64,000 nt of DNA, from contig NZ_JAOCCU010000019.1 of assembly GCF_029840635.1 (NCBI RefSeq), forward strand, positions 1-64,000, written 5' to 3'. The stretch comes from Mitsuaria sp. GD03876. Its GTDB lineage: Bacteria; Pseudomonadota; Gammaproteobacteria; Burkholderiales; Burkholderiaceae_C. The translations under genes were made by a program, and so were the position numbers. The notes under the pieces are model-generated. The model was not told where the DNA came from, ran no database searches, and was given only the letters and a program-made list of their open reading frames with translations. Shown piece by piece: positions 22,628 to 64,000 of this stretch; the first letter of the stretch is position 1, and each line of letters begins with the position of its first letter.

Positions 22628-23383
22628 TCAGCGCGCCAGCGCGGTGGCCGTATGCACCCGGACGCCCTCGCGGCGCACGTTGACGGTGAGGTCGTCGAAC
22701 ACGTCCGCGAGAGCGCTCGTGGACGCCGGCCGCAGCCGCAGCCATCGCAACTGCTCGCATCGATCGACCATCTCGACCTCGGTGAAGTCGACGAAGCGCC
22801 GGACCCGGGGATGGAGCGCCTTGTACAGGCTCTCCTTGGCGGAGAACAGCGCGGTCGCCAGTTCCGCCGCCGTCTCGGTTGGACACGATCGAAACCATCG
22901 CTCGCGTTCCCCAGGCGTGACGCAGACGGCGAGGATGTCGGCGAGGCCGGCGGCATCCACCACGACCTCCGTGTCGAGACCGAGGGTGCCGACCTCCGCC
23001 GATCGCCCGACGGCCGCCCAGGCCCCGCCACCCGCGTGCGTGATCGACCCGGAGACGCCGCTCGGCCAGAGCGGCTCGCCGGCCGGGCCCGTCGGCACCT
23101 CGCCGTCGGTGCCGGTCAGGGCCAGCAGTCCCAGCTCGGCGCAGTACCGACCCGCGGCATGGCTGAGCTGCCGTGGGCGCACCGCGTCGCGCAGCCGCGC
23201 CGGCAGCGCCGGCGGCGTCAGGCCGTCGAGCACCGCTTCCAGCGCCGCGAACTCGAGCCCGTGGCCGATCGCGCCGCCAGGCAGCGGATGCGGGGCCTCG
23301 CCGATCAGCCGCAGGACGCGCGCGTGGCGCTCCGGCGCGGCCCGGCTCAGCGCCGCGAGCAGGCCTCCCTGGCCCGCGCTCAT
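22628..23383 (-). CDS. Sfp/EntD-type 4'-phosphopantetheinyl transferase
   Basis: 251 residues; the ATG overlaps the acylase stop (ATGA). Family motifs: SGSITHAGGGAWAAVGRS, TLGLDTEVV (the G-[IL]-D-x-E magnesium-binding motif) and ATALFSAKESLYKALHP (the F/W-SxKES-xxKA motif). It transfers the phosphopantetheine arm of CoA to the T domains of the NRPS proteins of this operon, converting them to the holo form. It is the last gene of the operon. Confidence 0.93.
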   Translation of the reverse strand: MSAGQGGLLAALSRAAPERHARVLRLIGEAPHPLPGGAIGHGLEFAALEAVLDGLTPPALPARLRDAVRPRQLSHAAGRYCAELGLLALTGTDGEVPTGPAGEPLWPSGVSGSITHAGGGAWAAVGRSAEVGTLGLDTEVVVDAAGLADILAVCVTPGERERWFRSCPTETAAELATALFSAKESLYKALHPRVRRFVDFTEVEMVDRCEQLRWLRLRPASTSALADVFDDLTVNVRREGVRVHTATALAR

Positions 23384-25797
23384 CCCGGCGTGAAGGTCAG
23401 GACGTGGCGCGCCGGCCCCGGCAGCAAGGGCAGCGGCTTGCCCGCCACCCAGTCGGCATGTCCGGCCAGGAAGTAGTCGCTCAGCGGATGCCCGCTCTGC
23501 CCGCCGGGCATGTTGAACAGCCCGCGCTCCTCGCGACCCGGCGCGACGACCAGCCGCTCCGACTGCCCGAAGGCGGCGCCGCTGACGCGCGGCAGGTACT
23601 CGTCGCCCGGCATCTCGGTCTGCGGCGCCCGCAGCCACGCGTCCAGGCCGGGCAGCGCCATCGCGAGCGGGTGCTCGATGCGGCTGCGGTTGTAGTCGCC
23701 CCAGCGTCGCTCGGCCATCGGTCCCTCCTGCCGCAGCGTGGCGATCGCGCGATCCACCGCCGCCAGCTGGACGCTGTCCCAATCGACGCCCGGCCGCAGC
23801 CAGCCCGCCGGCCGCTCCGCGATCAGGCGCTGGGCCACGGCCGGCCAGCGGGGGACGGCCATCTGGTAGTCGAGGCTGCCAGGCAAGCGGGCCAAGGCTT
23901 CGCTGCCTCGCCCGAACAGCTCCACCCCCAGCGCGTCCATGTAGGCCCGCGCGAGGCGGTAGCCGACCGACGACGCGTCGGCCCGCCCGGTCCAACCGGT
24001 CTGCAGCAGGGACCGGAACTCGGCGCGCGGCGAGCCGGCCGGCGCCTGGCGCTCGTCCAGCACGGCCAGGGCCTGGGCGCGCCAGAGGGCCATGAACTCG
24101 GCGCGGTCGTCGAGCTGGAGGGCATGCAGCGCGGCTTCGTCGGGCTTCGACGTGGCGCGGAGCGCCGTCCGGATCTGGCGACCACGTGGTCCGAGGTCGG
24201 CGCCGCCGTCGCCGATCAGGGCCTGCGCCGGTCCCGCGAGCTGGCGCTGGTTCCCCGACGAGAGCACGCCATCGCCCGGGTCGACGCGCCGTGGATGCGC
24301 GTCGGCGGGCAGGCGCGCGAACGGCACCGCGTTCGCGGCGGCGCCGGCCTCGGCCCAGCGGTCCGGCAGCGCACCCGCCAGCGTCCATCCGACGCGGCCG
24401 TCCCGCGCGGCGATCAGGATGTTCTGCGCGGGAATGCCGGCAGTCGCCGCGCGGCTCAGGGCGTCGTCCAGCCCGGTGGCGGATTCCAGCCGCGACAGCC
24501 CCAGGTCCACGGCGCCGGGCAGCAGCGCGGTCCAGCGGACGACGACCTGCCGGCCCTCGATCTCCCGCAGGGGCAGGCCGTCGATCTCGCGGGTCGTCAC
24601 CGTCACGGCGTCGCCGCCGCGGACCTCGATGCGTTGCTCGCGCGGCGTGGCCACGACCTCGCGGCCGGCCACCCGGAATCGTCCGGCCCCGGCATCGACC
24701 GGGGTGGCGTCCACGAGGTCCACGTAGCGGCCGTAGCTGTTGGTGAATCCCCAGGCGACGTCGCCGTTGCTGCCGGCCACCAGCATCGGCACGCCCGGCA
24801 GCGTCACGCCGACGAGTCGGCGGTCGTGTCCCGACGCGGGATAGCTCAGCGACAGCCGGTACCAGGTGTTGGGCAGGCGCAGTGTCAGGTGCATGTCGTT
24901 GGCCATGACGGCCGCGCCGGTGCTGGCGCGCGATCCCGCCACCACCCAGCCATTGCTGCCCACGGCCAGCGGACGGTCCTTGCGGACCAGCCACGGCGCC
25001 ACCGGCGGCACCGTCGGCGGCAGGGCCGCGCGGGCCATCGGGCGCGGCGCGTCGCCGCCCGCCGGACCGAACCACGCGGGACCGCTGGCGGGCATGGCCG
25101 CCGGCACCGCCGCGACCTCGTCGGCATCCATCGGCGCGTCGAACGGCGACGACGGCGGCATCAGCACCGCGAGCTGTTCCGCCGTGGCATGGTCCCGCAG
25201 CCAGCGCAGCGCGACTTCCCGCGGCTCCTGCTCGCCCTGCAGGTCCAGGTACATCGCCCAGATCACCAGCAGGCTGTCGGCGGCCGTCCAGGGCTTGGGC
25301 GCCTCGCCCAGCACCAGGTACTCGAAGGGCCGCGCGCGCAGCGACGCGAGCCCGGCGTTGACGCCGCCCACGTACCGCGCCAGCAGCTCGCGCTCGGCCG
25401 GCGCCAGGGCGGCGACCGCCGCCTCGGCCCGGTCGCGGAAGCGGTACACCCGCGACGCGCGGTCCTGGTCCAGCAGGTTCTCGCCGAACAGCGCCGCGAG
25501 TTCCCCCGCCGCCGAACGCCGCAGCAGGTCCATCTGGAAGAAGCGGTCCTGCGCATGCAGGAAGCCGGTGGCGTAGGCCGCGTCCTCGCGGCTGCGCGCG
25601 ACGATGGCGGGCACGCCGTGATCGTCGCGCGAGGCCACGACGGGCTGGGTTACCCCGGGCGATCGCAGCTCGCCGTCCAATTGCGGCAGGCTCGCGCGCA
25701 TCAGCGCGACACCGGTCAAGGACAGCGCGAGCGTCAGGCCACCCGCGCCGAGCAGCCCCGCGACGCCGAACCGCCGCCAGCTCGACCAGCGCCTCAT
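23380..25797 (-). CDS. Penicillin acylase family Ntn hydrolase (PvdQ/QuiP-like)
   Basis: 805 residues from the ATG at 25797, coupled to the GNAT gene by ATGA. An N-terminal hydrophobic signal (VAGLLGAGGLTLALSLTGVAL) sends it to the periplasm. Alpha chain about 30-280 (HAQDRFFQMDLLRR is typical). Self-cleavage is expected before Ser281 in AVGSNGWVVAGSR, the N-terminal nucleophile of the beta chain; ANDMHL and WGFTNSYGRYVDL follow, and YNRSRIEHPLA lies near the C-terminus. In NRPS clusters such enzymes can remove a fatty acyl group from a precursor after export, as PvdQ does for pyoverdine; others degrade acyl-homoserine lactones. Its place inside the biosynthetic operon favours a maturation or self-protection role, which is inference. 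Confidence 0.9.
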   Translation of the reverse strand: MRRWSSWRRFGVAGLLGAGGLTLALSLTGVALMRASLPQLDGELRSPGVTQPVVASRDDHGVPAIVARSREDAAYATGFLHAQDRFFQMDLLRRSAAGELAALFGENLLDQDRASRVYRFRDRAEAAVAALAPAERELLARYVGGVNAGLASLRARPFEYLVLGEAPKPWTAADSLLVIWAMYLDLQGEQEPREVALRWLRDHATAEQLAVLMPPSSPFDAPMDADEVAAVPAAMPASGPAWFGPAGGDAPRPMARAALPPTVPPVAPWLVRKDRPLAVGSNGWVVAGSRASTGAAVMANDMHLTLRLPNTWYRLSLSYPASGHDRRLVGVTLPGVPMLVAGSNGDVAWGFTNSYGRYVDLVDATPVDAGAGRFRVAGREVVATPREQRIEVRGGDAVTVTTREIDGLPLREIEGRQVVVRWTALLPGAVDLGLSRLESATGLDDALSRAATAGIPAQNILIAARDGRVGWTLAGALPDRWAEAGAAANAVPFARLPADAHPRRVDPGDGVLSSGNQRQLAGPAQALIGDGGADLGPRGRQIRTALRATSKPDEAALHALQLDDRAEFMALWRAQALAVLDERQAPAGSPRAEFRSLLQTGWTGRADASSVGYRLARAYMDALGVELFGRGSEALARLPGSLDYQMAVPRWPAVAQRLIAERPAGWLRPGVDWDSVQLAAVDRAIATLRQEGPMAERRWGDYNRSRIEHPLAMALPGLDAWLRAPQTEMPGDEYLPRVSGAAFGQSERLVVAPGREERGLFNMPGGQSGHPLSDYFLAGHADWVAGKPLPLLPGPARHVLTFTPG

Positions 25798-26366
25798 GCG
25801 GACCTCGCGCCGACCGTGCCGACCGTGCCGACCGCGTCCGCCGCTCCGGTCACCGCCACGTCCGCCGGTCCGTCGTTGACGATGAACTCGTGCAGGTCCG
25901 GGTCCTCCGACGGCACCTCTTCGCGCACCGACGAGAACGGCAGGCGCTCGAACGCCCGGCGCCAGAAGTCGAGCGCCTGGCGGTCCTCGCGGAACACGCA
26001 AATCAGCCACGGCTCGTTGGAGTCCAGCACGACCTGTTGGACCACCTCGCTGGCGATGCCGCGCCCGCGATACCGGGGCAGGATGTACAGGTCGGCGAAC
26101 TCCATGATCGAGCGGCCGCGCAGGTTCTGGTGGCCCACCAGCAGCAGGCCGGCCAGCCGGCCCTCGTGCCGGATCAGGTAGGCCCAGTCGAAGCTGTCGG
26201 GATCGCCCAGCCGCTCCAGGAAGTCGGACAGCGAGTTGAACCGGGCCGACTCATCGATGTCCTCGCCGGACCAGAACGAGGATTCGAGCTCGTAGAACTG
26301 CCAGAGCCGGTCGAGGAGCGTGGCGTCGTCGCGCGTCACGCGGGAGAGGGTGATGGGGGCGCTCAT
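25794..26366 (-). CDS. GNAT-family N-acetyltransferase
   Basis: 190 residues; start and stop both overlap neighbours by ATGA. It has the GNAT core: EFADLYILPRYRGRGIASEV (acetyl-CoA pyrophosphate-binding R/Q-x-x-G-x-G/A) and LDSNEPWLICVFREDRQALDFWRRAF. The C-terminal tail has a short GTVGTVGA repeat. It could acylate an amine of the peptide or of a Dab-containing precursor, or confer self-resistance; the substrate cannot be read from sequence. Confidence 0.85.
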   Translation of the reverse strand: MSAPITLSRVTRDDATLLDRLWQFYELESSFWSGEDIDESARFNSLSDFLERLGDPDSFDWAYLIRHEGRLAGLLLVGHQNLRGRSIMEFADLYILPRYRGRGIASEVVQQVVLDSNEPWLICVFREDRQALDFWRRAFERLPFSSVREEVPSEDPDLHEFIVNDGPADVAVTGAADAVGTVGTVGARSA

Positions 26367-27175
26367 GGCATGTCCTTGTACTTGATCAACGTGATGAAGC
26401 CGTCGCGCACGGCGAAGACGCGTTCCTGCTGCATCGAGGGGACTTCCTGGCCGGGGGCCAGGCCGTGCGGGTGGGTCCAGCCGTGCAGCTCGTCGACCAG
26501 CAGCAGCCGGTCGCCGTCCCGCAGCACCACCCCGTGGCCGTGGAAGGCGCGCGACATCCGCGTCGCCTGCGCCACCGAGCCCGCCAGGTCCAGCGTCCGG
26601 TCCGCGTCGACCGGCATGCGCCAGTAGGTGCCCGCGGACTGGGCCGCGCGCCGCTCCCATCGGGCCGGCAGGTCCGCCAGCACCGCGCCGATGAACGCCG
26701 CGGCGTGGTGCCGGGACTTGACCAGCAGCGTCGTCAGATTCTCGTCCGGCGCGAGGTCGAACCCTTGCCGCGCGACCACCGCGCCGCCGTCCCACTGCGC
26801 GGAGAGTTCATGCACGGTGATCGCCGATTGCGTGAAGCCCTTCAGGATCAGGTGGGGCAGCGGCGCCGGGCCGCGGCCCTCCGGCAGCGGGGAGGGATGG
26901 ATGTTGATGCCGTAGGCGCAGTGGCCGCGCCAGTCGGGCACCTTGTGCGAGTAGGACGCCGACAGCACCAGGTCCACGCCCTTGGCCTGGAGGCGCGCCA
27001 TGTCCTCGGGTCCGATCGGATCGAACTGGACCGGCACGCCGAGCGACCCGGCCAGTGCCGCGACCTGCTCGCCGTCGTCCTCCTCGGTGAAGAGCTCGAC
27101 GAGCTCATGGCCGTCGCGCAGCGCGGCCGTCAGGACGTCGCCGAAGCTGTCGTCTCCCAGGTAGGCGAATCTCAT
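26363..27175 (-). CDS. Formyltransferase (methionyl-tRNA formyltransferase-like fold)
   Basis: 270 residues; ATGA overlaps at both ends. MRFAYLGDDSFGDVLTAALR opens a Rossmann-like N10-formyl-THF-binding domain. NIHPSPLPEGRGPAP (near residues 88-102) and ITVHELSAQWDGGAVVARQ carry the catalytic Asn, His and Asp of formyltransferases. A small FMT-C-like domain follows. In NRPS clusters relatives formylate amino groups such as hydroxyornithine (PvdF) or an N-terminal amine. No ornithine N-monooxygenase is seen here, so formylation of Dab or of the peptide is more likely; the position is unknown. Confidence 0.87.
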   Translation of the reverse strand: MRFAYLGDDSFGDVLTAALRDGHELVELFTEEDDGEQVAALAGSLGVPVQFDPIGPEDMARLQAKGVDLVLSASYSHKVPDWRGHCAYGINIHPSPLPEGRGPAPLPHLILKGFTQSAITVHELSAQWDGGAVVARQGFDLAPDENLTTLLVKSRHHAAAFIGAVLADLPARWERRAAQSAGTYWRMPVDADRTLDLAGSVAQATRMSRAFHGHGVVLRDGDRLLLVDELHGWTHPHGLAPGQEVPSMQQERVFAVRDGFITLIKYKDMP

Positions 27176-28152
27176 CGGCCTTCTCCCGTCACGGCCTCGA
27201 AGCGCAGCATGCGCGAGGTGGGACTGGCGCGGTAGGCCATGGCCTCGGCCAGGTCCACCTTCACGTTGAAGCGGCGCAGCCAGCGATCGGCGCCGTCGAA
27301 GCGCGGCTGGAAGGACTTGCGGCCGTGCAGCCACTTGTAGTTGTCGATGAAGCACAGGTCGCCGTCGGCCAGCGGCACCTCCCGGCTGCGCGCCTGCAGT
27401 TCCTGGACCAGGCGCGACATCACCTGCGCGGCCTCGTCGTCGCCGGCGGCGGCGATCGTGAAGTCGAGGTCGAAGCGGATGTAGGGGGTCGTCGCGTGGC
27501 CGACCAGGATCGACTCCGCCGGCGGGCGCGCCACGTCCTCGGTGTGCGAGTCGTCGGCCAGGTGATGGAAGCGGGGTTGCGCCAGCACCGCCAGGTCGCG
27601 GTCGGACAGGCGCAGGTCGCGCACGGCGGCGATCAGCGTCGCGGTGTGGTCGGGATTGCGCACGCAATGCAGGCAGATGAAGTCCGCGCGCATCGGATGG
27701 AAGGTGTCCTCGGTGTGGAAGTTCAGCATCTGCAGGCTGTTGGCGCCTTCCTGGGCGTACTCGCGGCCCTTCATCGGCAGGATGTCGTGGATCAGCTTGC
27801 CGGCCTGCTGCGTCTCGAAGCCGAACGGTTCCCCGAACACCGAGGCCATCAGGATCGCGAGGTAGTCGCAGTCGAAGTCCGGGTGGTAGCTGTCTTCCTT
27901 GAACCAGGTCCGCGGCGTGGCGGGCATCGGCGCGCCCGGCGAGAAGCCGCTGACGACCAGCACGCCGGCATGGTCCTGCAGGTCCCGCAGCCGGTACAGC
28001 TCGCGCAGCAGTCCTTCGGGCAGGCGCGCGGCGACCAGCGGGGCGTCGCGGACGAAGTCCTCGTCCTCGGCCGACGGATGGGCGCGCCGGCATTCGTCGA
28101 GCAGCGCGCGCACGTGCTGGAGCTCGGAGGCGGTCAATTGGTACTTGTTCAT
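27172..28152 (-). CDS. VioC/AsnO-like Fe(II)/2-oxoglutarate hydroxylase 1
   Basis: 326 residues with GGAAGA before the ATG. NFHTEDTFHPMRADFICLHC gives the H-x-E iron ligands used by the clavaminate synthase/VioC/AsnO branch rather than the usual H-x-D. DNYKWLHGRKSFQPRFDG carries the distal His, and RWLRRFNV the 2-oxoglutarate-binding Arg. Members beta-hydroxylate free or carrier-bound amino acids (Arg, Asn, Asp, enduracididine). It is paralogous to the next gene (28174) but clearly divergent, so the two probably act on different residues or sites. Confidence 0.88.
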   Translation of the reverse strand: MNKYQLTASELQHVRALLDECRRAHPSAEDEDFVRDAPLVAARLPEGLLRELYRLRDLQDHAGVLVVSGFSPGAPMPATPRTWFKEDSYHPDFDCDYLAILMASVFGEPFGFETQQAGKLIHDILPMKGREYAQEGANSLQMLNFHTEDTFHPMRADFICLHCVRNPDHTATLIAAVRDLRLSDRDLAVLAQPRFHHLADDSHTEDVARPPAESILVGHATTPYIRFDLDFTIAAAGDDEAAQVMSRLVQELQARSREVPLADGDLCFIDNYKWLHGRKSFQPRFDGADRWLRRFNVKVDLAEAMAYRASPTSRMLRFEAVTGEGR

Positions 28153-28173
28153 GAGGTCTTCCGATCTGGCGCG

Positions 28174-29157
28174 TCAGCCGATCACGCGGGACTCGAGGCC
28201 CGCGCGCGTGGCGGCGGACTTGCGCAGGTTGGTGGTGATGTTGATCCGCTTGAGCCAGCGGTCCTGCCCGTCGAAGGCGGGGTCGAAGCGCCGCCGGCCG
28301 TGCACGACCTTGCGGTTGTCGATCAGGCAGAGGTCGCCGGCCCCGATCACGGTGTCGCGGGTCTTGCGCTCGATCTCCGCGCGCAGCAGGTCGTAGGCCT
28401 CGAGCGCGGCCGGGTCCATGCCGGCGAAGTCGGTGTAGGCGGGGTCGTAGCGCAGGAAGGGATGGGCCCGGTTGCCATACAAGGTCCGGATGCCGGTGGC
28501 TTCGTCCGCCGTCGCGCGCAGCGCCGCGTCGGACTGCTGCGCGGTGTCGAGGTGGGTCTCGTCGGGCTTGAGCGGGAAGACCGCGTCGAACAGCAGCGCC
28601 TGCGTCGCCGGCGGGAGCTCGAGTTCCCGCATCGAGGCCAGCGTCGTCGGCACGGCGGCATGGTTGCGGATGCCGTACATGCAGACGAAGTCGGCCCGGA
28701 AGTCGTGGAAGGAATCCTCGGTGTGCATCAGCAGCTCCGACGTGCTGCCGTAGCTGGTCTGCGCGCCGCCGCGGTGGGGCTGCGGAATCAGGTCGTGGAC
28801 GATCTTGCCCTTCTGCTGGGTCGACCAGCCGAAGACATGGCCCAGGCAGGCCGACGCCAGCACCGCCAGGAAGTCCATCGCCAGGCGCGGGCGGTAGGAC
28901 TCGGGGTAGTTCCAGGAGGACGGGGTGTCGCCGGGCGCCTCGAACGGGAAGCCCGTCACCAGCGTCATGCCCGTGTGTTCATGCGACACCCGGAGCTGGT
29001 GATAGAAGGCTACCAGCCGGGGCGGCAGCTGGCGCGAGAGGAAACCGGCCTCCTGCAGGAAACCGGGGTCGTCGGCGGTGTCGCAGACGGCCATGACGCG
29101 ATCCAGCAGGGTCTGGATGTGGGCCACCTCGGCGGCGGTGAGGGCGAGTTGTTGCAT
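28174..29157 (-). CDS. VioC/AsnO-like Fe(II)/2-oxoglutarate hydroxylase 2
   Basis: 327 residues; GGAG precedes the ATG. LLMHTEDSFHDFRADFVCMY has the H-x-E ligands; CLIDNRKVVHGRRRFDPAFDG the distal His; and RWLKRINITTNLRKS the 2-oxoglutarate Arg. It shares overall layout (STQQKGKIVHDLIP against the TQQAGKLIHDILP of the neighbour) with hydroxylase 1, indicating an old tandem duplication. Candidate substrates are Gln, Dab or the unassigned residue of the second synthetase. A 51-base gap with pyrimidine runs separates it from the thioesterase gene. Confidence 0.88.
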   Translation of the reverse strand: MQQLALTAAEVAHIQTLLDRVMAVCDTADDPGFLQEAGFLSRQLPPRLVAFYHQLRVSHEHTGMTLVTGFPFEAPGDTPSSWNYPESYRPRLAMDFLAVLASACLGHVFGWSTQQKGKIVHDLIPQPHRGGAQTSYGSTSELLMHTEDSFHDFRADFVCMYGIRNHAAVPTTLASMRELELPPATQALLFDAVFPLKPDETHLDTAQQSDAALRATADEATGIRTLYGNRAHPFLRYDPAYTDFAGMDPAALEAYDLLRAEIERKTRDTVIGAGDLCLIDNRKVVHGRRRFDPAFDGQDRWLKRINITTNLRKSAATRAGLESRVIG

Positions 29158-29208
29158 GCGGTGCTCCGCGATCGGTTCAGGGTTCTGGAGGAGGAAAGGG
29201 CGGGCGCG

Positions 29209-30009
29209 CTAGCCGCGCGCGGTCGCCGCGGCCAGGGCCGTGGCGAGATGCGCGTCGATCAGCGCGGCCAGCGCGTCGAGATGCGTGTCGATGAAGAAGT
29301 GGCCCCCGTCGATCCGGTGGTGCGACACGGGCCCGTGGAACTCGCGGCGCCAACCGAGCAGGGCGTCCTCGCCCATGCAGGGGTCGTCGCGGCCGGCCAC
29401 GGTCACCAGCGTCGTGGCCAGCGGCTCGCGACGGCGGTAGCGGTAGGTCTCGCTCAACGAGAAGTCGGCGCGCAGGACCGGCAGGTACAGCTCGACCAGG
29501 TCCGGATGCTCGAAGAACTCGGGCGGCGTGCCGCCCCGCTCGCGCAGCGCGTCCAGGAAGGCGGCGCGCGGCAGGGCGTGCAGGGGCGACCGCTCGTCGA
29601 CGAGCCCCGGCGCGTTCTTGGCCGAGGCGAAGAACAGCGCCGGCAGGTGCCCGCGGTCGCGGAGCCGGTGAGCGATCTCGAAGGCCATCAGCGCGCCGTT
29701 GCTGTGCCCGAACAGCGCGAAGGGCCGGTCCAGCCAGGGCAGCAGGGCCTCGGCCAGCGCGTCGGCCAGGCGATGTGCGTCGCCCAGCGCCGGCTCGCCG
29801 AAGCGGGCGCCGCGGCCGGGCGGCTCGACGGCCACCACCTCCACCGGCGTGCGCAGCCGGCCGGGCCAGTCGCGGAACAGGGACGCGGCGCCGCCGGCAT
29901 AGGGCAGGCAGAACAGCCGCATCGGCGCGTCGGGACGGGGCCGGGGCGAGAAGGCGGCGGCCGATGCGATGGCGCGCGGCGGCAAGGAGGCGGTCGGGGT
30001 CATCGTCAT
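29209..30009 (-). CDS. Type II thioesterase
   Basis: 266 residues; its ATG shares one base with the exporter stop (TGATG). RLFCLPYAGGAASLFRDWPG at the start and VEVVAVEPPGRGARFGEP are typical of GrsT-like external thioesterases. The nucleophile elbow is FGHSNGALMAFEIAHRL, with the catalytic His in GGHFFIDTH. It removes misprimed acyl groups from T domains of the assembly line. Its GHSNGA elbow is the same as that of the terminal thioesterase domain of the last synthetase. Confidence 0.92.
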   Translation of the reverse strand: MTMTPTASLPPRAIASAAAFSPRPRPDAPMRLFCLPYAGGAASLFRDWPGRLRTPVEVVAVEPPGRGARFGEPALGDAHRLADALAEALLPWLDRPFALFGHSNGALMAFEIAHRLRDRGHLPALFFASAKNAPGLVDERSPLHALPRAAFLDALRERGGTPPEFFEHPDLVELYLPVLRADFSLSETYRYRRREPLATTLVTVAGRDDPCMGEDALLGWRREFHGPVSHHRIDGGHFFIDTHLDALAALIDAHLATALAAATARG

Positions 30010-33238: not shown

Positions 33239-47778
<14,540 letters not shown>

Positions 47779-47813
47779 GTTGCTGTCGAAGATGTGTTCT
47801 GGGGAGGACCGGC

Positions 47814-56800: not shown

Positions 56801-58301
56801 GTTCCAGCGCGCCGTCCGCGCCGCGACTCGCCTCGAGCGCCAGGTCGAACTGCGCCGATTCCACCGGCACCTCCAGCGCGTCCACCTGGACCCCGTCCAG
56901 CTGGGCGGGCGCTTGATCGTCCTCCTGCATCGCCAGCAGGATCTGGAACAACGGCGAGTGGCTCAGCGAGCGGGCTGGACGCAGCGCTTGAACCAGCCGC
57001 TCGAAGGGCAAAGCTTGATGCGCTTGTGCCTCCAGCACGGTGCGCCGGCTCTGCGCCAGCAGGGCTTCGAAGTCCTGCTCGCCGTCCACGCGGACCCGCA
57101 GCACGAGCGTGTTGACGAAGAAGCCGATGAGATCGGCCAGTTCGGGCCGCTCGCGGTTGGCGCTGGGCGTGCCCACGACGATGTCGGACTCGCCGCTGAA
57201 GCGCGCCAGCAGCGCGGAGAACACCGCGTGCAGTCCCATGAACAGCGTCGCGCCGCGAGCGCGGCACAGCGCTTCGAGCGCGCCGGTGAGCCCGCTATCG
57301 AGCGTGGTGCGCAGCGCGGCACCGTGATGGCGCCGGCGGGCCGGGCGCGGCCGGTCCAACGCCAGACCGTGGATCTCGGGCAGCTGCGCGAGTTGCCGTG
57401 TCCAGTAGGTCAACTGGTCTTGCAGCCGCGCCTGCTGCGTCGCGCCGTGCTGCCAGGCCGCGTAGTCGGTGTACTGGATGGGCAGCACCGGCCACGCGGG
57501 CGCCTCGTCGCGCCCCAGCGCGTCGTAGGCGGCCAGGAAGTCGCGCACCAGCACGCCGGTGGACCAACCGTCACTGGCGATGTGATGCAGCACCACCACG
57601 AGGACGTGCTCTCGCGGGGACAGCCGCAGCAGCCGCGCGCGGATCGGCAGCGCGGACGACAGCGCGAAGGGCTCGTCAACGACGCGGGCCACCGCTGAGC
57701 GTATCGCCGCCTCGCGTACCGCGGCTTCGCGTACCGCGGCTTCGTGCGTGGAAGCGCCGTGCGTCGGGGCGTCCCGCTGCGCGGTCTTGCCCACCGCGGT
57801 AGCACGCTCCCCGTTGTCGACATCACCGGCGTCCACCGGCACGTCCTCGCGTTCCAGCGCGAAGGACTCATCCCCGCGCACGCGCTGAACCGGCTCACCG
57901 TCCACCTCCGCGTACACCGTGCGCAGCACCTCGTGGCGCCGCACCACCTCCCGCAGCGCGGCCTCCAGCCGCGCGTCGTCGAGCTCGCCCGTAAGCGTCA
58001 GCGCCACCGGCATGTGGTACTCCAGGCTCCGTCCACCGCCCAGTCCGTCGATGAGCCACAGCTGCCGCTGGCCGAAGGACAAGGGCCAGTCCTCGCGGTC
58101 CCGGGGCAATGCCGGGATCGCTTCGGCCTGGCCGGCGCGCATGCGGAAATGAGATTCCAGCGCCGCCTTGTGCGCGCGGAGCTGGTCCATCAGTTTGGCA
58201 CCGAGGGTCTCCGGCCGCGCGCCGATGAAGAGCCGGTCCTCACGCAGGCCGATGGCGACATCGCGGGCGTCGAGCTCGCGCAGCAGGTCGTGGAGCGTCA
58301 C
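47814..58301 (-). CDS. NRPS, second synthetase: docking-C-A(Thr)-T-C-A(Gln)-T-C-A(unassigned)-T
   Basis: 3495 residues; the start overlaps the upstream synthetase stop (ATGA). Residues 1-55 (MTLHDLLRELDARDVAIGLR) form a TubC-type docking domain. C1 from about 70 (LCL-type, HHIASDG near 240); A1 core near 755; T1 near 1150; C2 from 1240 (HHLISDN near 1405); A2 core near 1925; T2 near 2320; C3 from 2395 (HHLVLDH near 2540); A3 core near 3015; T3 near 3417; then a tail of about 60 residues rich in Gly/Asp. Codes by eye: DFWNIGMVHK (Thr); DAWQFGLIDK (reported for Gln as I recall); DIGDMGVVDK (not recognised; acidic 278 position hints at a basic side chain). C2 and C3 have the dual E/C-type opening (IEDIYPLTPLQ, VQEILPLTGLQ), so D-Thr and D-Gln are expected. 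No TE; the chain passes to the terminal synthetase. Confidence 0.93.
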   Translation of the reverse strand: MTLHDLLRELDARDVAIGLREDRLFIGARPETLGAKLMDQLRAHKAALESHFRMRAGQAEAIPALPRDREDWPLSFGQRQLWLIDGLGGGRSLEYHMPVALTLTGELDDARLEAALREVVRRHEVLRTVYAEVDGEPVQRVRGDESFALEREDVPVDAGDVDNGERATAVGKTAQRDAPTHGASTHEAAVREAAVREAAIRSAVARVVDEPFALSSALPIRARLLRLSPREHVLVVVLHHIASDGWSTGVLVRDFLAAYDALGRDEAPAWPVLPIQYTDYAAWQHGATQQARLQDQLTYWTRQLAQLPEIHGLALDRPRPARRRHHGAALRTTLDSGLTGALEALCRARGATLFMGLHAVFSALLARFSGESDIVVGTPSANRERPELADLIGFFVNTLVLRVRVDGEQDFEALLAQSRRTVLEAQAHQALPFERLVQALRPARSLSHSPLFQILLAMQEDDQAPAQLDGVQVDALEVPVESAQFDLALEASRGADGALELLWRYDTDLFDEASIQGFAQGLRWLAAAAVQTPDRAIQSLALVSPQERQALLALGQARVAPTPVQGSLAQRFLAQAARTPEAVALVDGQRQWRYDELAKASAALANRLHASGVRRGDRVGVFMSRSAHVVVALLAVLRRGAAYVPLDAMYPDERVAGILEDAQVRTVVADAVTAPRLGERDHVRADVDLDIDINLDTRTDANANANAKGGARANGDGEANSDVGTTAGADGDWASDEVDAGPEDLAYLIYTSGSTGQPKGVMVTHANVLRLFERTDSVFRFGAGDVWALFHSFAFDFSVWEMWGALLHGARLVVVDHEAARSTPLFHALVAEHGVTVLNQTPSAFQAFMEEDRRSPRALALRLVIFGGEALDLRRLVPWFERHGERARLVNMYGITETTVHVTHRDVTPGDALGESGSVIGRAIEDLSLWVLDAASEPVPRGVVGELCVGGPGVARGYWRRPELSAQRFVAHPALPESQRLYRSGDLARLRHDGELEYLGRGDHQLKIRGFRIEAGEIEALLRGMDGIEDACVLGVPRVRPTRLAAYVVMSEAHQASAAYKASEVLDAAAIRDALARQLPEYMVPATVTRVAAWPLTTNGKLDVAALPAPELEENAHEPPIGEREEMLAEVWREELELPRVGRGDNFFQRGGHSLLLVRMAARLRERGWLLDLSSVYAARTLAEMAASLRPATAATPADGSTFATGEVDGGIDGRTHGADGLDRALDGAGASAIPPGCEHITPEMVPLAALERGELDRLVSRVPGGAAVIEDIYPLTPLQTGMLVQHTLQDTGDVYLNRAVFAFDEHALMQRFLAAFQRVVDRHPILRTAFHWEALDRPQQVVMRHAVVPVVELQSDQHDETLETLEAASDPHQLRLDLTAAPLLRAWTIHDAASDRWLLALVDHHLISDNYTLQLIADEIRRQLDGQPLSPRVWPYSRQVARALAVDAAAQEQHFRDAIGPMEAPTAPYGLLDVQCRAEDIGQAELTLDAERSARLRQAARRLSVSPAALFHVAFAALVARTSATPDAVIGTVVSGRQGNEPGLSEAMGLFINTLPLRVALHGHTLDQAVTQTAAGLAALMRHEQATLETVRRATGLEASLPLFTALLNYRHANLLGPRGADTQADLWPGVHLLRSEERTNFPLAVSVDDDGQGFLLTVQALHAIDPARVTAHLDCALTHLLEGMETADAGAGTPALLPVLTQAQRAACLAATDRAPAPADWDESATAVHQLFERQARLRPNATALRFEGTSVDYADLNVRADRVAALLHRHGASTDEPIAVCATRGVAQIVALLAVLKSGAPYLPMDPAYPAERLRLLLDDARPRLIVTDAAGDEALAGLLPNEPVGGLEHLSLRTLADLTPAGQRDPSSAAAASNLDARANANSNARVDDRISTDAEATVDREPPLRAVQARDLAYVIYTSGSTGRPKGVMVSHGALLNHLRWQIREFAIDAHDAVLQRTPMSFDASVWELWTPLATGARLVLVPERSVREPAQLTALIRSESVSIAQFVPSLLEALLPPAGDPPPFQCRLLFCGGEALSPALATRARALATDALVNLYGPTETCIDATFWRCADDASGSVPIGRPIDHTVLAVLDAAGDPVPPGAEGELHIGGAGLARGYLHRPDLTAERFIEIGQPPVRFYRTGDRVRERADGALLFLGRNDRQVKVNGIRLELGEVEDQLRALPGVRQAAAECIAQPDGPSVLVGYLCLDPDDAPEAGDDMQQTGDTAEEHLREILASRLPAALVPAHLLVLDQLPLLPNGKLDRARLPRPARAQARPEAEQATPRSPLEQAIAETWAELLGLAAVSRDDHFFRLGGQSLQAIRVVARLAARGIPCSVAQLYAHPTPAALARVLDDALDSAPAAERPEAPGMDGNGGLPDAAVARLVASLPGGQDNVQEILPLTGLQEGLLYHHLADQQGDAYLLQTVLAFDGPERLEAYLGALRRVIARHDALRTSVHWEHLPHPVQVVHRQVDLVVEPVTDLQAGDAADQLRARFHPAHCRLDITASPLVRIWTAFDPERGRWLALLLAHHLVLDHSTLAIVMDEVGAILAGREAELPPSLPYRDLVAAARDAAADSVERARTFDELLGEVTEPTLPLGLPAEVDDIGDLRVATAPLDAALDTRLRGAAIDAGVSAGTLFHLAWARVLATLADRDDVVFGTVLIGRTRSTLADATAVGLMVNTLPLHVQLSGRSVREALSQVQARLTGLLAHDLTPLAEARRHSRVPAQTPLFSALFNYRHSADNGIRDREMAGIAALSSDEFSNYPLNVDIDDHGPRVAGEDGGGWSLTVQVARPHDPAMILALLRTALESLVTAMAQGGAGLVTDLAILPEAMASRIVAQGTGESLPVEPGGLYARIGRQARVRPTATALVDGDRTFSYAELDAMTGRIAANLASLGLGRGDRIALRLPRGWRLPAAMLGILRAGAAYVPLDADLPDERLAFVLQDARPAAVVLADEADGSPVTGPLATLNRLSIDRLLDEPAAAAAALPDDASLARELAYVVYTSGSTGMPRGVEVEHLGMQHRVEGWIRRFGFDEQPPRVLQMARMSVDICLGDLLKALSTGGTVVLCPEEHLLDAALLFELLDRSQASFGDFVPAVLRELTRHARSTGQTLRHLRQVMVGSEAWYGADLDALRAVLPPSARCYNVYGQTESVVDVSICDVTALAVERAEVVPIGDPLANTQLLVLDRRGAVLPWGVTGELHIGGPGLARGYCNLPEQTAARFLEAAPGARPGRLYRTGDLARLMPDGGMDFLGRADSQVKIRGFRVELQEVEAALLALPQVRCAAVVAHERAPGDRQLVAHVELLPAAAARDDATPRAIRQALRDRLPEHMVPTVVMLSPQLPQLASGKVDRRSLPPPEQDTRDDGGPPATPTEAQVSALWRELLRLDFEPQRNADFFDIGGHSLVAARFVTQCRERLGLAPAIRDVFTQRTVAQIAAVIDLARTLAPAAGEPAAGSGPRVGPDGRDDDGPAHDEALTVTEW
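53199..58084 (-). repeat. C-A(Thr)-T-C duplication unit, copy in the second synthetase
   Basis: Counterpart of 39300-44232. One extra 15-bp unit (GCGTACCGCGGCTTC, around 57714-57743) gives EAAVREAAVREAAIR here against EAAVREAAIR in the other copy, showing slippage since the duplication. Confidence 0.8.
56179..56202. repeat. (TTGGCG)4 in the Thr A domain of the second synthetase
   Basis: Four exact hexamers encoding Asn-Ala, at the same loop as 42347-42370 but with AAC rather than AAT as the repeated Asn codon. Confidence 0.8.
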
Positions 58302-61300
58302 AGGAAGAATCCTTCGTTCATGTCGTCGGCGCGCGCGGCGAGCCGGTCGGAGAGGCGGGCCGTCGTCCGGGCTTGCGTGATGGCGGCGGCCTGGGCCTGC
58401 AAGGTGCTCGCGGTGAACAGCGTGTCCAGCGGCAGTTCGGCGCCCATCGCGGTGCGGATCCGCGTGAGCAGGCGCATGGCCAGCAACGAATGACCGCCCA
58501 GCAGGAAGAAGTCGTGCTCGCGCCCGATCGCGTCGACGCCGAGCAGGTCGCGCCAGATCGAGGCGAGCTGGCGTTCATCGGCGCCTTCGGGCGGCGTGGA
58601 GGTCGCCGCGTCGGCCTGTGTCGGCGCGGGCAGTGCACCGCGATCAAGCTTGCCGTTCGGGGAGGTGGGCAGCTGGGGCAGGCGCATGAAGGCCGCGGGC
58701 ACGAGGTGCTCGGGCAGATGGCGCCTGGCATGCGCGGCGACGGTGGCCTCGTCGGCCTCGCCGACGTGGTAGGCCACCAGCGCCTTCTCATGCGCATCGC
58801 TGCCGCGGACCACTACGACGACGTCGCGCACGCCTTCGCAGCGCGCCAACACGGTCTCGACCTCGCCAGGCTCGACGCGGAATCCGCGCACCTTGGCCTG
58901 GAAGTCCGCTCGTCCGATGAACTCGAGCTCGCCGTCCAGCCGCCAGCGCACGAGGTCGCCGGTGCGGTACATGCGGGCCTGCGGCTCGTCGGTCAAGGAC
59001 CCGTCGGTCAAGGACCCGTCGGTCAAGGACCCGTCGGCCGAGGACCCGTCGGCCGAGGAGTTGCCGGCCGAGGAGTTGCCGGCCGAGGGATCGGTGACGA
59101 AGCGCTCGGCGGTGAGGTCGGGGCGGTTCAGGTAACCGCGCGCCACGCCGACGCCGCCGACCCACAGCTCGCCCGGCACGCCTGCCGGCACTGGCGACAT
59201 CGCCGCGTCCAGCACGTACAGCCGGGTGTTGGCGAAGGGCCGGCCGATGCTCACGCGAGCGCCTTGCTCGGCATGGCGCACGTAGGCGGCGCTGCACGAG
59301 ACCGTGATCTCGGTCGGACCGTAGGTGTTGACCAGCCGGGGACGCAGCGAAGGCTCGTCCCACAGCGTCGCCAGCAGCGCCTCCCACTGCGCCAGCTTGT
59401 GCAGCGAGATCGCGTCGCCGGTGACGTTGACGGTGCGCACGCCGCGCAGCTGCACGGCCGCGCGCGCGGGAGCCTGACTCCATTCGCCCACCAGCGTGTG
59501 CCAGTGCGCGGCGGTGAGATGCACCATCGAGGCGATGCCCGGCTGCTCGCGCGTGCCCAGCGGCTCGCGTCCTGGCGTGAGCGCGGCGCCCGCCAGCAGG
59601 GCAGGGACGATTTCCTCGATGGAGAGGTCGAAGTTCAGCGAGTTCTGCTGCAGGACCACCGAGTCGGCGTCCAGGTCGAACCAGCGCGCGGCGTCCAGCG
59701 CGTAGTTCAGCAGGCCGCGATGCTCGACCATCACGCCCTTGGGGCGGCCGGTGGAGCCGGAGGTGTACATGACGTAGGCCAGCCGCGAGGGCGCGGGGCC
59801 GGCCAGGTCGGGCTCCAGCGACCAAGGCTCGAATGCTGCGAGGACCGCGTCGTTCGACGCGTCGGACAGGGCAGGGGCTGGCGCATCGGCCGGTGAATCC
59901 GCCGACGCCTTGGCTTGCGTATCGGCTTGGTCTTCGCTCAGTGCAGCGCTCCGGACGTCGGCCTGCGCGTCATCTGCAAGCGCTCCGTCAGCCAGCAGTT
60001 CCGCCAGGTCGAAGCTCGCCACGGGCCAGTCGCGCACCGCGGCAGGTACCTCGCCCAGGCGCAGCACGGCGCGAGGTCCGGCGTCTTCCAGCATCTGCGC
60101 CAGGCGCTCGGCGGGATAGCCGGGGTCCAGCGGCAGGTACGCGCCACCGGCCTTCCACACGCCCAGCAGCGCGGCGATGAGCTCGGGCGAGCGTCGTGCG
60201 CAGACCGCCACGCGGTCCTCGGCGCGCACGCCGACGCGGCGCAGCGCCAGTGCCACGTGGCGGGCGCGGGCCTCGAGCTCGGCGTAGCTCCAACGCAGTT
60301 CGCCGTCGATGACCGCCGGCGCGTCCGGGCGAGCCGCCGCCACGCGGGCAATCGCGCGATGCACCAGGCCATCGGCCGGCAGGTCCCGTTCAGTGGCGTT
60401 CCAGCGCGCCAGCAGTCGCGCCTCGCTGTCGGGCAGCGCCGTCAGCGCGCGCACGGGCCGCGGGTCGGCGCTTTCCAGCGCCAGGGTCAGGCCTTCCAGC
60501 GCCCCGACGACGAAGTCCAGCATTCGTGGCGCGCCGACCTCGGCATCCGTCTGCATGACCAGCTCGAAGTCCTGCCCGAGGTCGTCCACCGACAGCGAGA
60601 ACGGATAGTTGGTCCGCTCCTCGCCGTCGAGGATCCGAAGTCCGGTCCCGCTCGACGCCGACGCGGGCGCGGTGTGGCGGTAGTTCAGCAACGCGCTGAA
60701 CAACGGCAGCCGCGCGTCGACCCCGCTGCACCGCTGGGCCAGCGCGAGCGAGGCCTGCTCATGCGCCACCAGCGCGCGGAGCACGCCGCTCATGGTCTCC
60801 ACGGCCTCTTCCGCGCTCGCCTGCGCGAGACGGGCGCGCACCGGCAGCGTGTTGATGAACAGGCCCATCGTGGACTCCACGCCCGAGCGGCCATGCAGCC
60901 GTCCCGACAGCACGGTCCCGAAGGCCACGTCGTCGCGTCCGGAGCAGGTGGCCAGCACCATCGCCCAGGCCACGTGGAACAGCGCCGCGGGGCTGATCCC
61001 GCGCTCACGCGCCGCTTCGCGCAGACGCCTCGACAGCGCCGGATCCAGCGCGCGCTCGGCCTGCGCGATGTCCGTGCCGTCGCCCCGAACCTCCAGCAGG
61101 TCGAAGGGCGCGGTCGGCGACGCCAGGTCGCCGAGCTGCGCGCGGAAGAACGCCTCCGCCTCCGGGCCGGCCTGGCGGTGCAGCGCCTCCGCGACGAACT
61201 CGCGGTAGGGCACCGGCACGGGCAATTCGTCCTGCCGCCCCTGCTCATGGAGCCGCCATTCGGTGTCGATGATCTCCAGCCCCACGTGGTCGAACACCAG

Positions 61301-64000
61301 GTGGTGGCAGCTGAAGACGACCAGGTGGGACCCGTCCTCGCGCTCCGCGATCTCCATCCGCATCAGCGGCGCCTCGTCCAGCGGCAACCACTGGCGCTCG
61401 CGCGCGCACAGCTCACGCATGCGCGCCATCACGTCCTCACCGGGCCCGAAGCGGCGCCAGGTCACCGACAGCGTCGCCTCGCGCCACACGACCTGCACCG
61501 GCTGGGGCAGCGCGTCCCACAGCACCGCCGTGCGCAGCGCGTCGTGGCGGGCCACCAGGTGCTGGACGGTCCGCGCGAAGCGTTCGGTCTCCTCGCGGCC
61601 GCCCAGGGCCAGCAGCACCGGCGTGACATACGGGTCGCTGCGCTGCGTGGCGGCCATGTGCAGGAAGAGCATCCCTTCCTGCAGCGGCATCAGCGGGTAG
61701 ATGTCCTGGATGTTGGCCGCGCCTCCTGGGGTGCGGGCCGCGATGTGGTCGATCTCGTCCTGCGACAGCGTCACCAGCGGCAGCATGTCCGGCGTGATGC
61801 GGGCACAGCCCGGCGCGATGAGGTTGGGCGGCGCCTGGAAGGCCGCGCCGGCCGCGGGGCCTGCAGCCTCCATCGCGCCAGCCAGCGCGCCGAGGTCGGC
61901 TGCCTCCAGGATCTGGTGGATGGACACGTCGGCGCCGTGCTCGCGCAGCCGCGACAGCAGCCGCAGCGACAGCAGGGAATGGCCGCCCAGCGCGAAGAAG
62001 TTGTCGCGCGTGGACACCGGGCGTCCCGGACTCAGCAGTTCCTCCCACAGCGTGGCCAGCAGGCGCTCAGCCGCCGTGGCGGGCGGCACGTGCCTGCCGC
62101 GTGACCCGACCACGGGCGCGGGCAGGGCCGCGCGGTCCAGCTTGCCGTTGACGCTCAGCGGCATCGCCTCGAGCACGATGAAGGCGGCCGGCACCATGTA
62201 CGACGGCAACCGTGTCGCGAGCTTCGCGGCCCAGTCGTGGCCCGTCGCATGCGCCGCGTCCGGCGCCGCCGCTTCCGTCAGCGTGAGGTAGGCCACGAGC
62301 CGCGCATCCCCGGGCGAGTCCTCGCGCAACACCGTCACCGCCTCGCGCACGCCGGGCAGCGCGGTCAGCGCAGCCTCGATCTCGCCGAGCTCGATGCGCT
62401 GGCCGCGCAGCTTCACCTGGAAGTCGTTGCGGCCGAGGTACTCGATCTGTCCGTCCTCGCGCCATTGCCCCAGGTCGCCGGTGCGGTACATGCGCGCCGC
62501 GGGATCCGTGGAGAACGGGTCGCGGACGAAGCGCTCGGCGGTCAGGTCGGGCCGGTTGAGGTAGCCGCGCGCCACCTGCACGCCGGCGATGTGGATCTCG
62601 CCGGGCACGCCCACGGGCACGGGCCGGCCGTGGGCATCCAGGACGTGCAGCCGGGTGTTGTCGATGGGAGCGCCGATCGGCACGGTGCCCTGCGGCGAGC
62701 CCAGCACGCAGGCGTGCCAGCTCACGTCGACGGCGGCCTCGGTCGGCCCGTACAGGTTGTGCAGGCCGGCGTGGGGCCAGCGGCGCAGGAAGCGATCCCG
62801 CTGGACCGGCGCGAGCGCCTCGCCGCTGCAGAAGACGAGACGCAGCGAGGCATGGGCGGTGGACGCCGGCACGCCGTCGAGATAGGCCTGCAGCATCGAG
62901 GGCACGAAGTGCAGCGTGGTGATGCCTTGCTCGTCGATCAGCCGCGCGAGGTAGTCGGGCGAGCGATGTCCCTGGGGACGCGCCATGACCACGCGCGCGC
63001 CGGTGATCAGCGGCCAGAAGAACTCCCAGACCGAGACATCGAATCCGAACGGCGTCTTCTGCAGGACGCGGTCGTCGGCGTCCAGCGCGAAGACGCGCTG
63101 CATCCACAGCAGCCGGTTGACCACGCCGGCGTGTTCGTTCATGACGCCCTTGGGCCGGCCGGTCGATCCCGAGGTGTAGAGCGTATAGACCAGATGACGC
63201 GGACCCAACGCTGGCTGCGCGGGAGCGACCGGCGGCAACGCGTCGAGCATCGCGCGTAACGGAACGGCATCGAGGACCAAAACCTCGGGCGGCGGCGAGC
63301 CGCCGGCATTCGCTTCGGCTTCGGCTTCGGCGTCGACGACGGCCGTTGCGTCGGCGAGGCGGCTGGCGATCGCCTGCTGGGTGAGCACGAGCGCGGGACG
63401 CGCGTCACGCAGGATCCAGCCCAATCTGGCCGGCGGCAGATCGGGATCCAACGGCACGTAGGCGGCGCCGGCCTTGAGCACGCCCAGCAGCGCGACCACC
63501 AGGTCCGCCGATCGTTCCATGCAGACGCCGACCAGTTGGTCCGGACCCGCGCCGCGCGCTGCCAGTGCCTGGGCCAGGCGGTTGGATCGCGCCTGGAGTT
63601 CCGCGTAGGTGAGGGTGCCGTCCTCCGCGCTGACCGCGATCGCTTGCGGCGTGCGTTCGACCTGGGCGTCGAAGAGCGTGTGGACCAGTTCGTCCGCGCC
63701 CGGCAGCTCGCGTGCCGTGTCGTTCCAGCGCGCCAGGCGCTGCTGCTCCGCGGCGGGCAGCGTGGCGAGGGCGAGCAACGCGTCGCGGCTCCCCGTGTCG
63801 AGCGCCTGGATCAGCTGCTCCAGCGCGGTGGCCGTGGCGTCGAGCAGCCGCTCGGCGCCCACGCGATCGTCCACCTGCATGACCAGCGTGAAGTCCTGTC
63901 CGAAGTCGTCCACGGACAGGGTGAACGGGTAGTTGGTGCGTTCCTCGCCGGCGATGACCGGCAGGGCGCCGGTGTCCGCCGAAGTCGGCGCCACGCTGTG
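58298..64000 (-). CDS. NRPS, first visible synthetase: (C)-A(Ser)-T-C-A(Dab)-T, 5' end outside window
   Basis: The frame is open to the window edge, starting inside a condensation domain (HSVAPTSADTG, ERTNYPFTLSVDDFGQDF), so the gene continues to the right; an apparent GTG at 63994 is not a start. A1 (about 63740-62110) has YTSGSTGRPKG and code DVWHFSLVDK, a known Ser code. T1 is near 61980. The C domain (about 61800-60450) opens ITPDMLPLVTLSQ...IQDIYPLMPLQ, has HHLVFDH at about 61300 and looks like a dual E/C type, implying D-Ser. A2 (about 60384-58622) has code DLEHNTTVSK, reported for Dab in PvdL/SyrE-type domains. T2 is near 58490 (LLGGHSLLAMRL), and a 60-residue tail ends in MNEGFFL. The chain passes to the second synthetase. 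Confidence 0.93.
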   Translation of the reverse strand, partial: HSVAPTSADTGALPVIAGEERTNYPFTLSVDDFGQDFTLVMQVDDRVGAERLLDATATALEQLIQALDTGSRDALLALATLPAAEQQRLARWNDTARELPGADELVHTLFDAQVERTPQAIAVSAEDGTLTYAELQARSNRLAQALAARGAGPDQLVGVCMERSADLVVALLGVLKAGAAYVPLDPDLPPARLGWILRDARPALVLTQQAIASRLADATAVVDAEAEAEANAGGSPPPEVLVLDAVPLRAMLDALPPVAPAQPALGPRHLVYTLYTSGSTGRPKGVMNEHAGVVNRLLWMQRVFALDADDRVLQKTPFGFDVSVWEFFWPLITGARVVMARPQGHRSPDYLARLIDEQGITTLHFVPSMLQAYLDGVPASTAHASLRLVFCSGEALAPVQRDRFLRRWPHAGLHNLYGPTEAAVDVSWHACVLGSPQGTVPIGAPIDNTRLHVLDAHGRPVPVGVPGEIHIAGVQVARGYLNRPDLTAERFVRDPFSTDPAARMYRTGDLGQWREDGQIEYLGRNDFQVKLRGQRIELGEIEAALTALPGVREAVTVLREDSPGDARLVAYLTLTEAAAPDAAHATGHDWAAKLATRLPSYMVPAAFIVLEAMPLSVNGKLDRAALPAPVVGSRGRHVPPATAAERLLATLWEELLSPGRPVSTRDNFFALGGHSLLSLRLLSRLREHGADVSIHQILEAADLGALAGAMEAAGPAAGAAFQAPPNLIAPGCARITPDMLPLVTLSQDEIDHIAARTPGGAANIQDIYPLMPLQEGMLFLHMAATQRSDPYVTPVLLALGGREETERFARTVQHLVARHDALRTAVLWDALPQPVQVVWREATLSVTWRRFGPGEDVMARMRELCARERQWLPLDEAPLMRMEIAEREDGSHLVVFSCHHLVFDHVGLEIIDTEWRLHEQGRQDELPVPVPYREFVAEALHRQAGPEAEAFFRAQLGDLASPTAPFDLLEVRGDGTDIAQAERALDPALSRRLREAARERGISPAALFHVAWAMVLATCSGRDDVAFGTVLSGRLHGRSGVESTMGLFINTLPVRARLAQASAEEAVETMSGVLRALVAHEQASLALAQRCSGVDARLPLFSALLNYRHTAPASASSGTGLRILDGEERTNYPFSLSVDDLGQDFELVMQTDAEVGAPRMLDFVVGALEGLTLALESADPRPVRALTALPDSEARLLARWNATERDLPADGLVHRAIARVAAARPDAPAVIDGELRWSYAELEARARHVALALRRVGVRAEDRVAVCARRSPELIAALLGVWKAGGAYLPLDPGYPAERLAQMLEDAGPRAVLRLGEVPAAVRDWPVASFDLAELLADGALADDAQADVRSAALSEDQADTQAKASADSPADAPAPALSDASNDAVLAAFEPWSLEPDLAGPAPSRLAYVMYTSGSTGRPKGVMVEHRGLLNYALDAARWFDLDADSVVLQQNSLNFDLSIEEIVPALLAGAALTPGREPLGTREQPGIASMVHLTAAHWHTLVGEWSQAPARAAVQLRGVRTVNVTGDAISLHKLAQWEALLATLWDEPSLRPRLVNTYGPTEITVSCSAAYVRHAEQGARVSIGRPFANTRLYVLDAAMSPVPAGVPGELWVGGVGVARGYLNRPDLTAERFVTDPSAGNSSAGNSSADGSSADGSLTDGSLTDGSLTDEPQARMYRTGDLVRWRLDGELEFIGRADFQAKVRGFRVEPGEVETVLARCEGVRDVVVVVRGSDAHEKALVAYHVGEADEATVAAHARRHLPEHLVPAAFMRLPQLPTSPNGKLDRGALPAPTQADAATSTPPEGADERQLASIWRDLLGVDAIGREHDFFLLGGHSLLAMRLLTRIRTAMGAELPLDTLFTASTLQAQAAAITQARTTARLSDRLAARADDMNEGFFL
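58622..60384 (-). repeat. Dab adenylation-domain unit, copy in the first visible synthetase
   Basis: Counterpart of 37500-39246; nearly identical from LVHRAIARVAAARPDAPAV through GKLDRGALPAPT, with divergence immediately outside on both sides. Confidence 0.8.
58988..59092. repeat. Seven 15-bp tandem units in the Dab A domain (first visible synthetase)
   Basis: Three exact GTCGGTCAAGGACCC units, then graded variants (GTCGGCCGAGGACCC, GTCGGCCGAGGAGTT, GCCGGCCGAGGAGTT, GCCGGCCGAGGGATC), encode an Asn/Ser/Asp/Gly loop before MYRTGDLV. Confidence 0.9.

Follow-up and report, generated by a model that had tools for sequence, protein, structure and literature searches.

A Roseateles gene cluster predicted to make an acylated cationic peptide with a probable arginine-derived residue in a mirror-ordered core

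What does an NRPS assembly line whose residues seem to run in mirror order make, and has its product been described? The question is raised by a window of 64000 bases, the whole stretch of DNA analysed (positions 1-64000 of contig C11, in a draft genome that totals 6.36 Mb over 94 contigs), from a member of the Roseateles (Mitsuaria) group of the Burkholderiales, Mitsuaria being now Roseateles. Over a 901-base piece, its 16S gene shows 99.2% identity to that of Mitsuaria sp. 7. The cluster spans 47.5 kb from window position 22628 to contig position ~70099; all of its genes share a strand, and neighbouring genes either overlap at their stop and start codons or are separated by no more than ~50 bases. 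In order, they encode the synthetases N1, N2 and N3, a Dab aminotransferase, an ABC exporter, a thioesterase, two oxygenases, a formyltransferase, a GNAT protein, an acylase and a phosphopantetheinyl transferase (Table 1). The window end at 64000 truncates the cluster, and N1 extends to ~70099 on the contig, a start picked by eye; the part outside the window contributes two modules, one Orn-like and headed by a starter C domain, the other a C-T module that lacks an A domain. The assembly line given in the initial annotation was therefore too short by these two upstream modules.

Table 1. Features of the cluster, with positions in the window
Feature	Position	Strand	Remarks
NRPS N1, 3' part	58298..64000	-	Cs-A1(Orn-like)-T / C-[no A]-T / C/E-A(Ser)-T / C/E-A(Dab)-T; extends to ~70099
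A domain Ser	62000..63655	-	code DVWHFSLVDK
A domain Dab	58511..60244	-	code DLEHNTTVSK
NRPS N2	47814..58301	-	docking-C-A(Thr)-T / C/E-A(Gln)-T / C/E-A(X)-T
Duplicated Thr block, other copy	54240..58081		
A domain X	48075..49739	-	code DIGDMGVVDK; probably Arg or hydroxy/dehydro-Arg
NRPS N3	33235..47778	-	docking-C-A(Gln)-T / C-A(Thr)-T / C/E-A(Dab)-T / C-A(Thr)-T-TE
Duplicated Thr block (C-A-T-C/E)	40444..44231		direct copy of 54240-58081, 91% DNA identity
L-2,4-diaminobutyrate aminotransferase (EctB/DAT family)	31910..33238	-	NF006733 607 bits (cut-off 438), TIGR02407 584 (552)
Cyclic-peptide-type ABC exporter	30009..31907	-	TIGR01194 313 bits (cut-off 286)
Stand-alone thioesterase (type II)	29209..30009	-	profile search
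Oxygenase hyd1, Fe(II)/2-oxoglutarate, VioC/GntD family	28174..29157	-	
Oxygenase hyd2, Fe(II)/2-oxoglutarate, VioC/GntD family	27172..28152	-	
Formyltransferase, Fmt/ArnA type	26363..27175	-	PF00551 35.7 bits (cut-off 26.1)
GNAT acetyltransferase	25794..26366	-	profile search
Penicillin-acylase family Ntn hydrolase	23380..25797	-	profile search
4'-phosphopantetheinyl transferase	22628..23383	-	profile search

Analysis of the encoded proteins revealed that the kind of assembly line is ordinary and the set of parts uncommon. A TubC_N docking domain was found in N3 (41.3 bits) and, just under the cut-off of 26, in N2 (25.0 bits), and N3 ends in a thioesterase domain (PF00975, 141 bits). The aminotransferase passes the curated DAT and EctB cut-offs (NF006733 and TIGR02407) and the formyltransferase that of PF00551, the latter scoring 65.5 against TIGR00460, under its cut-off of 201.5; both enzymes had been named in the initial annotation and are borne out. 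Its two hydroxylases are likewise present and can be refined to the VioC/GntD family. The acylase it named is also present, as a penicillin-acylase family protein, the periplasmic place being suggested by the family and by a hydrophobic N-terminus seen by eye. We take the exporter to be of the PvdE/SyrD kind, and no NCBIfam model matched the GNAT protein.

Ten A domains were read in the whole cluster, nine in the window and one upstream. On re-reading, all nine window codes agreed with the order Ser-Dab-Thr-Gln-X-Gln-Thr-Dab-Thr proposed at the outset. Beyond the Ser and Dab codes of N1 (Table 1), N2 carries DFWNIGMVHK (Thr), DAWQFGLIDK (Gln) and the X code, and N3 carries DAWQFGLIDK, DFWNIGMVHK, DLEHNTTVSK and DFWNIGMVHK (Gln, Thr, Dab and Thr). 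DFWNIGMVHK is presumably a Thr code and DLEHNTTVSK presumably a Dab code, the latter call drawing also on the aminotransferase in the operon; DLEHNTTVSK was not found in the open-licence literature, and its position 278 varies with the alignment (H in two readings, T in one). The Ser call for DVWHFSLVDK is printed in an excerpt of PMC3795760, and the Gln code has an exact printed match in an excerpt of PMC2866473. The upstream domain, A1, reads DVGEVGTIDK and agrees at 8/10 positions with DVGEIGSIDK, which is ornithine in the part of PMC3992020 consulted.

Residue X, left unnamed in the initial annotation, is most likely Arg-derived, because its code agrees at 7/10 positions with DIGDLGIIDK, linked to dehydro-Arg in the available part of PMC12283262, and both oxygenases belong to the VioC/GntD family. 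The exact code of X was not found in the open-licence literature, and its residues 239 and 322 do not fit the usual Arg pattern given in the same part of that source. Since the Orn-like A1 code itself reaches 6/10 with the dehydro-Arg code, the 7/10 of X is modest evidence. For hyd1 and hyd2 the best NCBIfam model was GntD (enduracididine hydroxylase; 311 and 313 against a cut-off of 345) and the second VioC (273 and 283 against 418.6), with neither protein reaching either cut-off. The best solved chain for hyd2 was an L-arginine hydroxylase, and that for hyd1 was 6daw, titled a non-heme iron hydroxylase and followed in the ranking by Arg hydroxylases.

Both oxygenases keep the His-x-Glu...His facial triad as well as a further Asp, which we take to be VioC Asp222. 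The equivalents of Asp268 and Arg334 are also kept in both, the roles of the VioC-family residues being those described in a portion of PMC10884159. Because the Asp268 equivalent is present in 15/15 family members compared, it does not single out Arg. At the guanidinium site hyd2 retains both Asp residues, including the Asp270 equivalent, and hyd1 retains the first and has Ala at the second, leaving one Asp, like NapI. In the hydroxylase tree the two proteins group weakly (81/83); the tree and the residue table hold 15 of 17 intended rows, two (L047 and L048) having been removed by a motif filter.

The residues D-Ser, D-Thr, D-Gln and D-Thr had been suggested from C-domain types, and are supported as predictions by the T-C1 distances and the C-domain identity matrix. 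Counted with the T motif itself, the distance from the T-motif start to the next C1-motif start was 63, 69 and 65 residues in three internal C domains of LCL-like type. In the five dual-like domains it was 100, 100, 127, 89 and 127 residues, of which 127 and 89 fall outside the published band, and the two groups did not overlap. The lengths given in part of PMC10212144 are 65-70 or typically 60 for LCL domains and 95-105 or typically 92 for dual domains. The identity matrix gave the same grouping (42-95% among LCL, 36-84% among dual and 22-32% across the groups). Motif, distance and matrix together place the five dual C/E domains directly after the A-less T and after the Ser, Thr, Gln and Thr modules. 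The first C domain of N1 shares only 21-29% identity with each of the ten others and appears to be of the starter type; its nearest solved chain is 7c1k, which we take to be the RzmA starter C.

We then considered the mirror order. The palindrome put forward for the core holds for the residue names of the seven-residue core but not for the predicted chirality (L-Dab, D-Thr, D-Gln, L-X, L-Gln, D-Thr, L-Dab) or for the whole 11-module order, and 6 of the 630 orders possible for the core's composition are palindromic, in a pattern spotted after the fact. The Thr blocks of N2 and N3 are 91% identical across 3.8 kb, and N1 and N3 share a stretch of 2.8 kb that includes Dab, at 81% identity. Inverted duplication as the origin of the order was ruled out, because all 39 of 39 repeat pairs longer than 300 bases are direct (for N1, the portion beyond the window was set against the window portion alone) and the Gln A domains share just 45% identity, with no sign of recent copying. 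Copying of modules in direct orientation would explain the two core Thr and the two Dab residues, and the mirror order appears to be a by-product of such direct duplication, with no sign of designed symmetry. Short tandem repeats in the synthetase genes (window 58987-59088, 40344-40405 and 47244-47276) were read as low-complexity loops.

Relatives were sought in genome samples, with the best few candidates per genome scored (e.g. 5, 6 or 3). Among 379 order-level genomes, the X A domain (1e-120, best three candidates per genome) matched in two, its own and G430, whose X-like A domain has the code DIGDLGVIDK on contig C82, next to a Ser module. The one VioC-family match in G430 at 1e-10 lies on another contig, C54, in the order NRPS-ABC-TE-hydroxylase-GNAT-acylase, as in the present cluster, with identities of 38.5% for the exporter, 49.6% for the thioesterase, 29-30% for the oxygenase, 32.7% over 104 residues for the GNAT protein and 46% for the acylase. 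The two contigs are likely one cluster, with a Gln module and the ABC-TE-hydroxylase-GNAT-acylase tail on C54 and the X-type A domain and Ser on C82. It differs from ours in that its last Gln module stops shortly after the T domain and a second acylase is present; this second, diverged penicillin-acylase-like protein (L059 3403-5838, 22% match) adjoins the first. No match to the Dab aminotransferase or the formyltransferase was found in the G430 stretches read (C82 and C54). With its matching tail order and its X-type A domain, G430 suggests that there may be a small cluster family across two families of one order.

At 1e-30, hydroxylase relatives turned up in 3 of 399 genomes of the family, the cluster's own among them (best five candidates per genome), and in the own genome alone among 398 genomes of the phylum at 1e-40 and 16 of the genus at 1e-20. 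The accessory set was not found at the G154 and G271 loci, one G271 contig carrying NRPS pieces and a TE. Formyltransferase relatives occurred in 13 of 399 order genomes at 1e-25, own included (best six candidates per genome); the accessory set was absent from the flanks of 8 of the 12 others, and the flanks gave weak ABC matches at two loci (L022 and L029) and weak A-domain-like matches at a third (L027). A scan of named genomes gave five loci, four with strong NRPS matches nearby and one, in Leucothrix, with weak A-domain-like matches; the accessory set was absent at all five, with a weak ABC match at one (L037). On plasmids, none of the seven regions read among the best 30 of 66 and best 60 of 112 hydroxylase matches was alike by annotation, and the best match of the X A domain was 41% (best 15 of 1933 records). 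In a congener, G1153, window bases 106-13931 were matched at 91-95% in two pieces with a gap at 5571-7295, and no match above 300 bits lay beyond 13931 in the 60 kb compared; as far as this one comparison goes, the window beyond 13931 appears variable in the genus.

Taken as a whole, the locus is probably best explained as a cluster that makes an acylated cationic peptide, which is exported and then deacylated in the periplasm. The operon-like gene run would yield a cationic peptide, ten or eleven residues long and N-acylated. An Orn-like residue would come first, linked to a fatty acyl group by the starter C domain, and the three synthetases would extend it to the predicted product acyl-Orn?-(D-?)-D-Ser-Dab-D-Thr-D-Gln-X-Gln-D-Thr-Dab-Thr, to be released by the TE as a ring or chain. 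Dab would be supplied by the aminotransferase, and either or both of the VioC-type enzymes may oxidise free arginine to give X, carried as 3-hydroxy-Arg or, after water loss, dehydro-Arg. Once the exporter has brought it into the periplasm, the acyl-peptide may lose its acyl group to the acylase, for maturation or self-protection, as in the pyoverdine and glidonin pathways; the GNAT protein may protect or decorate the peptide, and the formyltransferase may cap an amine. For substrates, step order and acylase location we infer from the protein families and the glidonin and pyoverdine precedents, and the activity of the product is most likely antimicrobial.

A tentative alternative is that the acylase and GNAT protein serve self-resistance alone, by breaking the peptide down inside the producing cell, and that the acylated form is the active one. 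Such a role was considered for GdnD, likened to Tem25, in the part of PMC10587159 available, but both here and in G430 the acylase gene shares a run with the exporter gene, an arrangement just as compatible with maturation.

Another reading concerns the A-less module of N1, which might be inactive and skipped, giving a ten-residue product with X as its sole Arg-derived residue. It has no A domain between C and T, PP-binding being the only family found there, and no AMP-binding family occurs among the nine accessory genes; but the C, T and following C/E motifs look intact, as expected if the T domain were still used, and we regard skipping as rather unlikely. In the preferred pathway this T domain is probably charged in trans, perhaps with an Arg-derived unit too, which is a lead and not a result. 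In G430 the X module directly precedes the C/E-Ser pair, the place of the A-less module in N1, and this C/E domain and Ser A domain best match those of N1 (45%, the next C/E at 43%, and 59%). The idea of trans-loading is weakened because the best match of the G430 X-module C and T domains is not module 2 of N1. That the oxidised Arg of a dioxygenase pair is used twice, in its own module and in trans in the A-less one, in a formylated cationic acyl-peptide unmasked in the periplasm, and that this represents a new Burkholderiales pro-peptide family, seems unlikely.

Pyoverdine gene sets include an acylated intermediate, Dab supply, a cyclic-peptide exporter, a periplasmic acylase and a formyltransferase, all of which are present in or predicted for this cluster. 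A pyoverdine/ornibactin-type siderophore pathway, in which acyl-peptide and helpers mature an iron chelator, would account for these helper types (Dab aminotransferase, PvdE-like exporter, acylase and formyltransferase), but we rejected it as highly improbable, because the cluster's A domains include no Tyr or Asp code, the sole strong N-oxygenase match (402 bits, of three in the genome) lies at C89:74894 beside another NRPS, C11 carrying no Orn N-oxygenase, and of 55 TonB-receptor matches in the genome one is at C89:72408 and none on C11. The best Fur-box score upstream of N1, 11/19, was the same in C89 stretches chosen as a positive control, the 95th percentile of a shuffled 660-base null being 12. 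The acylase is no PvdQ ortholog, since it scores 26.8 bits against a cut-off of 950. The C89 locus (C89:46998-75934; L003 and L004), a second NRPS cluster with an Orn/Lys N-oxygenase and a TonB receptor, is itself likely the siderophore cluster. Its codes are a Thr code, two occurrences of DGEGSGGVTK, of which the locus end truncates the second, DGEDHGTVTK and DLTKVGHVGK, the last presumably an Asp code. DGEDHGTVTK is the code of an Orn-activating domain in an excerpt of PMC12283262.

NRPS lipopeptides that undergo deacylation are well known. In the viomycin, capreomycin and streptothricin pathways VioC, CmnC and OrfP, Arg-oxidising Fe/2OG enzymes like those proposed here, feed oxidised Arg to an NRPS; however, the assembly line differs, and here no capreomycidine-forming enzyme is found in the nine accessory genes. 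The glidonins (gdn, Schlegelella brevitalea, Burkholderiales), as described in part of PMC10587159, share a starter C domain, dual C/E domains, a module in which the A domain is partial, and an N-acyl peptide that a PvdQ-like acylase deacylates, the freed peptide occurring in formylated forms. They differ in that modules 1-3 are predicted to use Phe, Asn and Pro, the C-terminus carries putrescine and the acylase is encoded far away; Dab has no occurrence in that text and no Arg hydroxylase is noted in the part used here. Consistent with the initial annotation, we found no described peptide with this set of parts in open-licence papers. If right, the cluster would make an undescribed cationic peptide, probably antimicrobial, whose predicted residue list can be checked by mass spectrometry, and the family in two families of one order would tie an Arg-hydroxylase-type enzyme, a GNAT protein and an acylase to one A-domain code.

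Several features adjoin the cluster. A lone PrnB-like protein of a pyrrolnitrin-pathway enzyme family (window 18294-19625, PF08933 438 bits) lies next to it, and a family 64 beta-1,3-glucanase (window 14960-16108) and a chitinase-like GH18 protein with CBM5/12 (window 20799-22433) give the neighbourhood an antifungal look. On the other side, an inverted repeat, CTTCGGATAATCCGAAG, with 8-base arms and a one-base spacer (L001 12373-12389, C11 ~70572-70588), lies between N1 and a divergent upstream gene and is a possible operator. Further upstream, a region with an AAA_13 ATPase (36 bits, at the cut-off) and a DUF4145 protein (L001 15043-18059) is possibly a defence or mobile island.
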